Source: Sphingopyxis sp. TUF1 | GTDB taxonomy: Bacteria > Pseudomonadota > Alphaproteobacteria > Sphingomonadales > Sphingomonadaceae | Length of the DNA stretch: 64,000 bases | NCBI RefSeq assembly: GCF_036687315.1 | Contig: NZ_CP144683.1 | Location: forward strand, 2,364,001-2,428,000 | Reading direction: 5' to 3' | Shown: positions 32,233 to 42,135 of the stretch, one piece after another | Position numbering within the stretch: position 1 is the stretch's first letter | Layout: the number at the start of each line of letters is the position of its first letter | The notes under the pieces: model-generated | What the model was told of the DNA's origin: nothing | What the model saw: only the letters and a program-made list of their open reading frames with translations | Databases searched by the model: none | Program-made: the position numbers and the translations under genes

Positions 32233-32422
32233 GTCATCTCCCAGTCGTCTTGTGCGCGCAGATTACGCACCACGTTGCATTTTGCAATCGAATTGGCGTT
32301 TACCGAAAGCACGGCGGGTGGATGCGGCTATGCTTGTGACTGTCACAAAAATGTCATAGGCGCGACACCCGTTTGTCAACTTTGGCCGGCCGGCCATGCC
32401 AACCTTTGGAAAGGATAGCCAA

Positions 32423-33547
32423 ATGCGTCAGATCGCCGTCCTTCCCTATCGATTCGGCGGCCCGGCGCAGGACGGGCCGACTGAAATCCTGCTGATCACC
32501 TCGCGCGAAACGAAACGCTGGGTGATACCAAAAGGCAATCCGCTGACCGGAATGGAGCGCCACGCTGCCGCGGCGGTCGAGGCCGAAGAGGAGGCGGGCG
32601 TGATCGGCGCGGTGTGCCCGACGCCGATCGGCAGCTATGAATATCGCAAGCGCCGCGCGAATGGCGCGTCGATCATGTATAACGTCGAAGTCTTCCCGCT
32701 CGCGGTTACGAACGAACTCGCCGAGTGGAAGGAAATGGACGAGCGCGAGCGCCGATGGTTCGCCTTTCACGATGCCGCGGCGGCGGTCGACGAGACCGAT
32801 CTGCAGGCGCTGATCCGCTCGTTCGGCGACGGCGGCTTCCGGGCCGTTGCGCAGCCGCGCGGGGCGGTGCTGAATAATGATGAGAAGACAGGGGTAAGCC
32901 GGATGTTCGCATGGTTTCAGCGTCTGCTGCCGCGGCAGGGCAATTTTTTCGAATTGTTCGAAAGCCACGCGGCGACGCTGGTCGCAGGCGCGAACGCGCT
33001 GTCGCGCATGTTGCAGGGCGGCGACGGCATGGCCGACCATGTGCGCGAGATTATCGAGCGCGAGCATGACGCCGACGCGATCACGCGTGAGGTGCTTCAG
33101 ACCGTCCGCCGGACCTTCCTGACTCCCTTCGACCGCAGCGCGATCACCGACCTGATCGCCTCGATGGACGATGCGATCGACGAGATGCAGAAAACCGCGG
33201 GTGCGGTCGACCTGTACGACGTTACCGAGTTCGAACCCGAGATGCGCGATATTGGGGGTATCATCGTCGATGCCGCGCGCCTGACCGCGGAAGCGCTGCC
33301 GTTGCTCCGCAACATCGGCGCCAACGGTCCGCGGCTCCATGAACTCACCGAAAGGCTGGTCCGGATGGAGGGTCATGCCGACGAAATCCACGCATCGGGG
33401 CTGAAACGGCTGTTCCGCGAACATGGCGAGGCGAATCCGACGCGCTTCCTGATCGCGCGCGAGCTGTTCCGTCACCTCGAGCGCGTCACTGACAGTTTCG
33501 AGGATGTCGCGAACGAAATCGACGGTCTGGTCATCGACCACGCCTAG
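32423..33547 (+). CDS. NUDIX-DUF47 (PhoU-like) fusion protein
   Basis: 374 residues. Residues 1-145 are a NUDIX domain: ILLITSRETKRWVIPKG, then the box G38NPLTG...VEAEEEAGV60, with the EExG core intact but two usual positions changed (Met44 for Glu and Val52 for Arg). Residues about 160-374 are a DUF47/PhoU-like helical domain starting MFAWFQRLLPRQGNFFELFE and carrying acid motifs EREHDAD (212-218), MEGHADEIH (315-323) and ERVTDSFEDVANEID (353-367). The ATG at 32423 has an aaagga site 7 bases upstream. An internal ATG at 32903, with gggg 8 bases upstream, could also yield DUF47 alone. A PiT transporter gene starts 16 bases downstream. DUF47 proteins are PiT accessory proteins; the role of the NUDIX part is inferred to be signal or nucleotide turnover. 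Confidence 0.82.
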   Translation: MRQIAVLPYRFGGPAQDGPTEILLITSRETKRWVIPKGNPLTGMERHAAAAVEAEEEAGVIGAVCPTPIGSYEYRKRRANGASIMYNVEVFPLAVTNELAEWKEMDERERRWFAFHDAAAAVDETDLQALIRSFGDGGFRAVAQPRGAVLNNDEKTGVSRMFAWFQRLLPRQGNFFELFESHAATLVAGANALSRMLQGGDGMADHVREIIEREHDADAITREVLQTVRRTFLTPFDRSAITDLIASMDDAIDEMQKTAGAVDLYDVTEFEPEMRDIGGIIVDAARLTAEALPLLRNIGANGPRLHELTERLVRMEGHADEIHASGLKRLFREHGEANPTRFLIARELFRHLERVTDSFEDVANEIDGLVIDHA

Positions 33548-33562
33548 GCGGGGGCGCCCTTC

Positions 33563-34576
33563 ATGCACGAACTCGCTTTCCCGCTCCTCGTTGGCCTGAT
33601 CATCCTCGCGCTGGCGTTCGATTTCCTGAATGGACTGCACGACGCGGCGAACAGCATCGCGACGGTTGTCGCGACGCGGTTGCTGCGCCCGGTGCAGGCC
33701 GTGATGTTCGCGGCCTTTTTCAACTTCGCGGCCTATTTCCTGAGCCTCGCCTTTCCGGCGCTGCACAAGGTTGCCGAAACGATCGGGGCGGGTTTGATCG
33801 ACAAGGATCTCGTGACGCCCGCGGTTGTGTTCGGCGCGCTGGTGGGCGCAATGTTCTGGAATGTCGTGACCTGGCTGAAAGGCATCCCGTCCTCGTCGAG
33901 TCATGCGCTGGTCGGCGGCATCGTCGGTGCAGGCGTCGCCCATGCCGGGTTCGAGGGGATTCAGTGGAGCGGGCTCAACAAGACCGTGATTGCGATCTTT
34001 CTGTCGCCGATGCTCGGCATGTTCCTTGCGATGCTGGTCATGCTCGCGAGCAGCTGGGCGCTGCACCGCGCGACAGCCAAATTCGCCGAATCGACCTTTC
34101 GGACCCTGCATCTCTTTTCGTCGGCCGCCTATTCGCTGAGCCACGGACTCAACGATGCGCAAAAGACGATGGGGATCATCGCGGTGCTGCTTTACTCCAC
34201 CGGCTATCTGTCGGGCGAGTTCCATGTGCCGCACTGGGTCGCATTTTCCTGTTATATCGCGATCGCGCTCGGCACGCTGTCGGGCGGGTGGAAGATTATC
34301 GAGACGATGGGCGGGCGCATCACCAAATTGTCGCACCATCAGGGCTTTGCCGCCTCGACCGGCGGGTCGATCATGGTGTTCACCGCCAGCCTGCTCGGCA
34401 TCCCCGTATCGACCACGCACACGATTACCGGCAGCATCATCGGCGCCGGTGTCGCGCGGCGGACGAGCGCGGTACGCTGGGGCGTCGCGGGCAATGTCAT
34501 CGCGGCGTGGTTCATCACCATTCCCGCCAGCGCGGCGGTGGCGGCGCTGTTCTATGCGCTGACGCGGCTGTTCTAA
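33563..34576 (+). CDS. PiT family inorganic phosphate transporter
   Basis: 337 residues with about ten membrane helices and the two-repeat PiT signature: FDFLNGLHDAANSIATVVATR in the first half and HGLNDAQKTMGIIAV in the second. PiT proteins import phosphate (often as a metal-phosphate complex) with H+ or Na+. It follows the NUDIX-DUF47 gene by 16 bases, so co-transcription is likely. DUF47-PiT pairing is well known in rhizobia; the NUDIX fusion is the uncommon part. The sequence does not tell the affinity class. Confidence 0.95.
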   Translation: MHELAFPLLVGLIILALAFDFLNGLHDAANSIATVVATRLLRPVQAVMFAAFFNFAAYFLSLAFPALHKVAETIGAGLIDKDLVTPAVVFGALVGAMFWNVVTWLKGIPSSSSHALVGGIVGAGVAHAGFEGIQWSGLNKTVIAIFLSPMLGMFLAMLVMLASSWALHRATAKFAESTFRTLHLFSSAAYSLSHGLNDAQKTMGIIAVLLYSTGYLSGEFHVPHWVAFSCYIAIALGTLSGGWKIIETMGGRITKLSHHQGFAASTGGSIMVFTASLLGIPVSTTHTITGSIIGAGVARRTSAVRWGVAGNVIAAWFITIPASAAVAALFYALTRLF

Positions 34577-40954: not shown

Positions 40955-41001
40955 TCAGTTCGGTGGTCGGGGTTGGCCCCCTGACCGCCAGTGGATTCGC
41001 G

Positions 41002-42135
41002 TCAAGCCGCGTCGGCGTCGGCGGTCAGACCAGCATCGTTGCGGTTCGCCGCGCGGCGGCGCGCAACGAGCGCGGCGGCCGCAGCGCCGAACAGCAGCAG
41101 CATCGGCGGCGCGGGAACGGGGGTGGGGTCGCCCGACGAGCTGCTGGTGCTGCCGCCCGAGCTCGACGAGGAGGACGACGACGAGCTGCTGCTCGACGAA
41201 GAGGATGAACTGGTGCTGCCAGTCGAGCCCCAGCTGCTGCTGCCGCCGGTCGCGCCCGATGACGTTGCGCCGCTCGAGGTGCTGCTGCTCGACGACGAGG
41301 ACGAGGAGGAGCTGCTGCTCGACGAGGAACTGCCCGATGCGCCCGAGCTGCCGTGCGACGACGAGCCGCCCCAGCTCGAGCTGCCGTGCGATGATGATCC
41401 GCCCTTCGACGAACTTCCGCCCGACGAGGAGGAACTCGATGAAGAGGAGGAGGAAGAGCTCGACGAGGACGAACTCGACGAAGAAGAGCTGCCGCCCGTC
41501 GACGTGGACGTCGAGCCGCCCGAGGTCGAAGTAGAACCACCGGAGGTTGAGGTCGAGCCGCCCGAAGTTGAGGTGGAACTGCCGCCCGTGGACGTCGAGC
41601 TCCCGCCGGTCGATGTCGAGCTGCCCCCGGTCGAGGTCGAGCTTCCCCCCGTAGAGGTCGAGCCGCCCGAGGTCGAGGTGCTGCCACCCGTCGATGTCGA
41701 GGTAATCACGATGCTGCCGCTGCTGCCGCCCGAGCTGCCGCCGAAGAAGCCGCCGAAGAAACCACCGCCGAAGCCGCCGCCAAAGCCGCCGCCGACGACG
41801 GTGACGCCGCCGCCGCTACCGCCGCCGCCTTCCCAACCCGACTGCGGGAAGGGGGCATAGGGGATCGGGGGCAGCGGGATCGTCTGCGTCACGACCTGCG
41901 TCTGCGGGGTCGCGGTGCGGATCACTTTCCTGGTGGTCACAACGCGGCGCACCCGCTTGACTGGCTTGCGCGCGGCGTGGCGCTTGCGCACCACCTTCTT
42001 TGGAGCGCAGGGCGCACATTTGACCGTTTGCGCGCGCGCCGAGGGGACATCGGCGACCTGCATCGCGCCACTGCCGATAATCGCGCCGCCGCAGGTGCAG
42101 GCGCAAAGTTTGGCGAGGGCCATTCGGACAGACAT
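41002..42135 (-). CDS. Ser/Gly low-complexity exported protein with exosortase-like C-terminus
   Basis: 377 residues from the ATG at 42135. A signal peptide (to about residue 36) is followed by a strongly basic stretch (KKVVRKRHAARKPVKRVRR), a Gly/Phe tract (GGGFGGGFGGGFFGG) and about 220 residues of Ser/Thr/Gly repeats built on GGSTSTS plus long poly-Ser runs. The C-terminus has the tripartite layout of PEP-CTERM proteins: a PVPAPP motif, a hydrophobic helix (MLLLFGAAAAALVA) and RRR, here with 16 extra residues after it. Such signals are cut by an exosortase and the protein sent to the cell surface or matrix; no exosortase gene is in the window. The repeat region invites slipped-strand length change. 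Function unknown. Confidence 0.78.
   Translation of the reverse strand: MSVRMALAKLCACTCGGAIIGSGAMQVADVPSARAQTVKCAPCAPKKVVRKRHAARKPVKRVRRVVTTRKVIRTATPQTQVVTQTIPLPPIPYAPFPQSGWEGGGGSGGGVTVVGGGFGGGFGGGFFGGFFGGSSGGSSGSIVITSTSTGGSTSTSGGSTSTGGSSTSTGGSSTSTGGSSTSTGGSSTSTSGGSTSTSGGSTSTSGGSTSTSTGGSSSSSSSSSSSSSSSSSSSSSSSGGSSSKGGSSSHGSSSWGGSSSHGSSGASGSSSSSSSSSSSSSSSSSTSSGATSSGATGGSSSWGSTGSTSSSSSSSSSSSSSSSSSSGGSTSSSSGDPTPVPAPPMLLLFGAAAAALVARRRAANRNDAGLTADADAA

Follow-up and report, generated by a model that had tools for sequence, protein, structure and literature searches.

PitR regulates inorganic phosphate (Pi) homeostasis together with PitA in Staphylococcus aureus, and the published PitR tree was built from proteins with a single PhoU_div domain only (PMC13170248). 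The orfA-pit operon of Sinorhizobium meliloti, which is repressed upon starvation, has a PHO box just upstream of its translation start (PMC3131613, citing Bardin et al.), the consensus being two CTGTCAT repeats with a spacer of 4 nucleotides (nt) (PMC3131613). DDP1, DIPP and Aps1 are endopolyphosphatases, and catalytically dead Aps1 retained part of its function in vivo (PMC11323792); K63 of DDP1 contacts the phosphates of polyphosphate (polyP) and Ap5A (PMC8064635). In Streptomyces the Nudix gene nudA (SCO4143 in S. coelicolor, SLI_4382 in S. lividans) is part of the ppk-pptA cluster (PMC7866108, PMC8003754). Here we describe a locus in a stretch of 64,000 nt from Sphingopyxis sp. TUF1 (contig NZ_CP144683.1, positions 2,364,001 to 2,428,000; the window), in which one gene joins a DIPP/DDP1-like Nudix domain to a PitR-type DUF47 domain directly upstream of the gene for a PiT phosphate transporter.

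The Nudix subfamily found in this fusion is strongly tied to PiT in Alphaproteobacteria, although the tie is not universal for the subfamily, and within the fusion both domains are under purifying selection. In the window Pfam NUDIX (PF00293) matches residues 16-122 of the fusion with 29.8 bits (cut-off 21.1), PhoU_div/DUF47 (PF01865) matches residues 170-371 with 138.4 bits (cut-off 24.4), and PHO4/PiT (PF01384) matches the downstream gene over its entire profile (positions 1-350 of 350) with 307.3 bits. The N-terminal part of the fusion contains a Nudix fold and the DUF47 part a PhoU-like helical bundle, and 15 nt separate the stop codon of the fusion from the ATG of PiT. A longer mechanical start of the fusion frame exists at 32396, but we prefer 32423 since it is preceded by GGAAAGGA and relatives align from there. 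The 3.47 Mb genome, a single contig, has one copy of the fusion, one PiT match, namely the one beside the fusion, one PstS-like protein and one ppk1; a second strong member of the Nudix subfamily was not found in this genome, the next match having an E value of 0.02. The sequence-only reading of this DNA, which had described Nudix and DUF47 in one frame beside PiT, is thus borne out by the Pfam matches and by conservation.

Table 1. Features of the Nudix-DUF47/PiT locus (positions in the window; aa, amino acids; pLDDT, AlphaFold2 confidence score)
Feature	Position	Strand	Remarks
Candidate PHO box CTGTCACAAAAATGTCAT	32340..32357	+	65 nt before fusion start codon
Shine-Dalgarno GGAAAGGA of fusion start	32408..32415	+	sequence
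Nudix-DUF47 fusion gene	32423..33547	+	374 aa, one open frame
Nudix domain, DIPP/DDP1-like	32423..32836	+	about residues 1-138
Nudix box	32534..32602	+	residues 38-60; metal ligands E53, E56, E57; from sequence alignments and residue counts
Disordered linker	32831..32938	+	residues 137-172; AlphaFold2 pLDDT <50
Internal Shine-Dalgarno AGGGGT and ATG (32903, M161)	32890..32905	+	where free-standing DUF47 begins
DUF47/PhoU_div (PitR-type) domain	32930..33544	+	residues 170-374
PiT inorganic phosphate transporter	33563..34576	+	337 aa; Pfam PF01384

In a family-wide search 116 of 298 genomes matched the fusion query, and the full-length or nearly full-length one-frame fusion is present in 91 of the 298, the window's own included; in one further genome (G244) the frame is broken inside DUF47. 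Thirteen genomes have DUF47 without a fused Nudix domain, and in one of them (G129) Nudix is a separate gene just upstream of DUF47. Three weaker DUF47-only matches were left out of the thirteen: that in G203, where the distance to a PiT is about 1.6 kb, and the second match of G245 and that in G026, with no PiT in the stretches read around them. A contig search added further fusion loci, and in the best 80 of its 238 both domains were matched in every case. PiT follows the fusion in 129 of 130 loci read (30/30 in L001-L030, 79/80 in L031-L110 and 20/20 in L111-L130); in the 80-locus batch it lies at most 218 nt away in 79 loci, and in the last one the contig ends 107 nt past the stop codon. 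The family neighbourhoods read comprised 50 of the 91 fusions and all 13 unfused DUF47 genes, and PiT was present in all of them, the unfused DUF47 genes (13/13) included; in these counts neither the loci of one genus nor those retrieved by two routes are independent of each other. The frameshift at about 32890 that the sequence-only reading had considered as a possible separation of the domains is excluded by conservation; an internal ribosome-binding site before DUF47 is located at this position. A frameshift or assembly artefact was rejected on the same grounds (91/298 family genomes and the 80 loci).

When 45 Sphingopyxis-group loci were compared with the window, dN/dS had a median of 0.106 for Nudix and of 0.048 for DUF47, and the linker had the highest median of the three parts (0.158, 43 loci). 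All fusions of an order-wide sample (296 genomes) fall in family f1, and in a sample of 385 genomes of the class the fusion occurs outside its own family in only three, all of family f39. These three loci (L206-L208 in G335, G462 and G558) belong to another order and carry both fusion and PiT. The two f39 fusions included in the tree both group with sphingomonad fusions, which suggests that the f39 fusions were probably acquired by horizontal transfer. Two solo Nudix genes (L148 in G118, L149 in G154) fall within the clade of fused copies; their genomes gave no DUF47 match in the family-wide search, and the genes are perhaps remnants after loss of DUF47-PiT. In L131 (G093) the DUF47 frame opens 81 codons upstream, with linker-like EKTG residues and no recognisable Nudix domain, and is probably a decayed fusion.

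We then looked at Nudix and PiT irrespective of fusion. With profile A1 for Nudix and PF01384 for PiT, the class sample gave 70 Nudix-region matches in 63 of the 385 genomes and PiT matches in 124. Both occur in 47 genomes, and in 38 of these the matches listed lie within 3 kb of each other, with less than 1 kb between the match edges in 37 of the 38 pairs. G540, whose PiT position is not among the matches listed, was counted as non-adjacent; seven of the 70 Nudix matches have E values above 1e-10, and without the five genomes having only such matches adjacency is 38/45. The 38 pairs, among them the window's own, come from 22 families and show five or more arrangements: fused Nudix-DUF47 followed by PiT; separate genes in the order Nudix, DUF47, PiT (G339); DUF47, PiT, Nudix (G614, G356, G436, G534); DUF47-PiT with a divergently oriented Nudix (G470); a long PiT immediately preceded by Nudix, at a locus without DUF47 (for example G672, G353, G376); convergent Nudix and long PiT (for example G306, G674); and long PiT followed by Nudix (G552). 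In the same-strand pairs of Nudix and long PiT inspected, the stop-to-stop frames overlap or are at most about 125 nt apart. A tree of 114 Nudix domains, in which only 20 of 111 inner branches are starred, requires 17 switches between the state PiT-adjacent or fused and its absence, and starred branches force five or more of these. The sequence-only reading had singled out the fusion itself as the module; the fusion is real, but this view is too narrow as the coupling extends to Nudix and PiT in a large part of the class.

Two observations concern the geometry of such pairs. In L228, L274 and other convergent Nudix/long-PiT pairs only a few tens of nt lie between the domains, and in L228 and L274 the convergent frames overlap. 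In L299 (G601), where a short draft contig ends, the first part of the Nudix gene runs in frame into PiT, which may represent a deletion, a chimera or a direct fusion; G601 was counted as one of the 38 adjacent pairs but was not treated as a type of fusion.

Several counts weigh against a tie between Nudix and PiT, and they are the reason why we do not call the tie universal. Nudix and PiT are non-adjacent in 9 of the 47 genomes with both (G540 included), and among 19 further class loci from a phylum search PiT is present in only six (L285, L289, L292, L293, L294, L297). None of the 19 loci read in other classes, of which some lie on short contigs, and none of the 20 solo Nudix copies read inside the family has a PiT within about 3 kb. 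Such solo copies away from PiT, together with the 13 PiT-DUF47 pairs of the family that lack Nudix, would be expected if Nudix were a housekeeping enzyme that cleans up diadenosine polyphosphates (ApnA) or oxidised nucleotides, was fused by chance in an ancestor of the sphingomonads and plays no part in the uptake of phosphate. However, adjacency in 38/47 genomes, 22 families and several arrangements, including long PiTs without DUF47 in the loci read, argues against a chance fusion with no tie to PiT, chance adjacency being estimated at about 0.2% per genome, and we regard the housekeeping explanation as quite improbable. The recurrent neighbours of the Nudix loci were discarded as a clue to the substrate, as they showed no phosphate link and their clustering was polluted by antisense frames; the eight representatives were an alpha/beta hydrolase, RecJ, MarR, an ABC protein, a short-chain dehydrogenase, an RNA methyltransferase, a glutathione transferase and one unmatched protein.

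The strict Nudix box reads GX5EX7REUXEEXGU. In the fusion M44 and V52 stand for its E and R, as the sequence-only reading had noticed, and the remainder is kept. Both positions are variable throughout the Nudix subfamily, fused or solo, so that M44 and V52 do not indicate a decay of the domain in the fusion. The metal-binding residues E53 and E57 are conserved in 134/134 fusions and E56 in 133/134 (one E56D), and E104 is conserved as strictly as in the solo copies; on these residue counts a degenerate Nudix domain was rejected, and the earlier suggestion that the domain may bind rather than cut finds no support. Basic residues are likewise retained: R28, aligned with DIPP1 R41, is Arg and K37, aligned with DDP1 K63, is Lys in 132/134 fusions each, R108 is kept in 134/134 and K76 in nearly all. 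At the position of DIPP1 R20, presumably a functional residue, the fusion has Q3 instead of a basic residue (kept in 133/134). By sequence profile the nearest solved relatives are DIPP1-3 and DDP1 (E value 2.6e-18), with no Aps1 chain among the matches listed, followed by Ap4A hydrolases (4.4e-10); the relation to the diphosphoinositol/diadenosine polyphosphate group proposed before therefore holds as that to the closest group by sequence.

The replaced box residues combined with conserved basic phosphate-clamp residues would also fit a binding-only receptor, in which Nudix takes up a phosphate-rich ligand and gates DUF47 or PiT. The partial in vivo function of dead Aps1 (PMC11323792) points in the same direction, as does E56 being Gln in 3/22 solo PiT-adjacent copies. 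A pure receptor, however, would need none of the three metal-binding Glu residues or E104, and their strict conservation in the fusions makes this alternative unlikely in our view.

The candidate PHO box agrees with the consensus at 12/14 positions and is the only match in the window, where 0.01 would be expected. The pattern CTGTCAYN5TGTCAY has two exact matches in the 3.47 Mb genome and none in a reversed control; the other match (G000:C1:264368-264385, L300) ends 31 nt upstream of a frame with a PhoX alkaline phosphatase match of 300.8 bits. Upstream of fusions the exact box is present in 36/45 Sphingopyxis-group loci and 2/55 others, and a looser one in 40/45 and 17/55; control tiles gave 0/532 and 0/658, a lenient control as the tiles are mostly coding. 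In a scoring of 100 loci 43 reached at least 12/14 consensus positions, nearly all of them from the Sphingopyxis group, and most other loci were near the shuffled level. These matches suggest that the fusion-PiT operon may be under control of PhoB, which could either activate or repress it.

The PHO box and the ppk1 gene of the genome would also be compatible with local supply, i.e. Nudix would release Pi from polyP or nucleotides in starvation and share an operon with PiT without any regulatory link to it. The ppk-pptA-nudix operon of Streptomyces, which is controlled by PhoR/PhoP (PMC8003754), provides a parallel. Yet the fusion joins Nudix to the regulator, not to the transporter or to a kinase, it lies beside PiT, and there is no ppk among the eight recurrent-neighbour representatives scanned, so that we consider local supply, too, rather unlikely.

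A start codon is kept at the position of M161 in 123/133 fusions (120 of them ATG), and five of the ten fusions without it have a Met two codons earlier. The mean Shine-Dalgarno energy at M161 is -6.17 kcal/mol, that of the fusion starts -6.04 and that of 1223 other internal ATGs -2.05. Free-standing DUF47 frames have a Met at the equivalent place in 22/31 cases (pattern match), and at the split locus of G129 the Met of DUF47 lies there, preceded by AGGGGAA. From the conserved start codon and Shine-Dalgarno sequence we infer that two proteins are probably made from the fusion gene, Nudix-DUF47 and free DUF47. Another internal Met in Sphingopyxis-group genes, M203, scores as well as M161 (-6.75), so M161 is not the only one with such a signal. 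The PHO box at 32340-32357 and the internal ribosome-binding site with the ATG at 32903 are newly recognised here.

Taken together, we favour the following account and hold it to be moderately probable as a whole. A phosphate-controlled operon would encode the importer PiT and its accessory regulator PitR/DUF47, to which a catalytically active, DIPP/DDP1-like Nudix pyrophosphohydrolase would be flexibly tethered, and internal initiation would provide DUF47 alone beside Nudix-DUF47. At the transporter Nudix would hydrolyse a cytoplasmic compound rich in phosphoanhydride bonds, and the outcome of binding or cleavage might act through DUF47 on the activity of PiT or on signalling by PhoR/PhoB. 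The most likely substrate would be inorganic polyP, followed by ApnA or a related nucleotide; polyP is favoured because DDP1, DIPP and Aps1 are endopolyphosphatases, the equivalent of DDP1 K63 is kept and ppk1 is present. To our knowledge bacteria generally lack inositol pyrophosphates. More tentatively, and with considerable doubt, the account may be extended to a general alphaproteobacterial module in which a Nudix enzyme of the DIPP clan reads and erases a phosphate-rich messenger at PiT, as a counterpart of the control of phosphate transport by inositol pyrophosphates in eukaryotes; in sphingomonads it would be built into PitR, the internal start fixing the proportions of regulator with and without the enzyme.

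It is an open question by what means other than PstSCAB-PhoR bacteria sense cytoplasmic phosphate, and a Caulobacter study infers a cytoplasmic phosphate-sensing pathway that it calls so far unknown (PMC11208175). Being linked to PiT in 22 alphaproteobacterial families, the Nudix enzyme is a candidate for connecting a phosphate-rich metabolite with the uptake of Pi, and could be a partner of those long PiTs that have no DUF47 neighbour. In open PMC titles and abstract starts among the matches listed, a scope outside which subscription papers and preprints lie, neither a fusion of Nudix with DUF47 nor a pairing of Nudix with PiT is described, in line with the earlier view of the fusion as a candidate for an undescribed module; one apparent hit for DUF47 and Nudix was false and concerned DUF4743. 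Linking a phosphate signal to phosphate uptake via Nudix and an importer may thus be an undescribed way of control. Elsewhere in the window, a plus-strand frame at 40991-41860 contains runs of Pro-Val-Glu/Asp repeats and may be a mechanical open reading frame over a repeat.

OrfA of S. meliloti we take to be a DUF47 protein. The orfA-pit operon resembles the locus described here in being an alphaproteobacterial pit operon with a PHO box upstream, but differs in that no Nudix is mentioned in the available text (PMC3131613). With PitR of S. aureus and others the fusion shares the DUF47 domain, the position of the gene directly beside pit and the PiT partner; it differs by its N-terminal Nudix domain, though the internal start could still give plain DUF47. 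Having this additional domain it departs from the single-domain architecture of PitR and lies outside the PitR tree, which took single-domain proteins only, and the terms "Nudix" and "DUF47" are absent from the main text of that report (PMC13170248). Streptomyces nudA is similar, by description only, as an ApnA-hydrolase-like Nudix gene in a phosphate cluster with pitH1 as a further member, but it belongs to another operon and no DUF47 fusion is mentioned in the sections available (PMC7866108, PMC8003754). DIPP1-3, DDP1 and Aps1, finally, differ from the fusion, which is bacterial, is joined to a putative transporter regulator, has Q in place of R20 and lacks the E and R of the box; they resemble it in the metal-binding Glu residues, in the kept equivalents of R41, R115 and DDP1 K63, and in their context of phosphate homeostasis.
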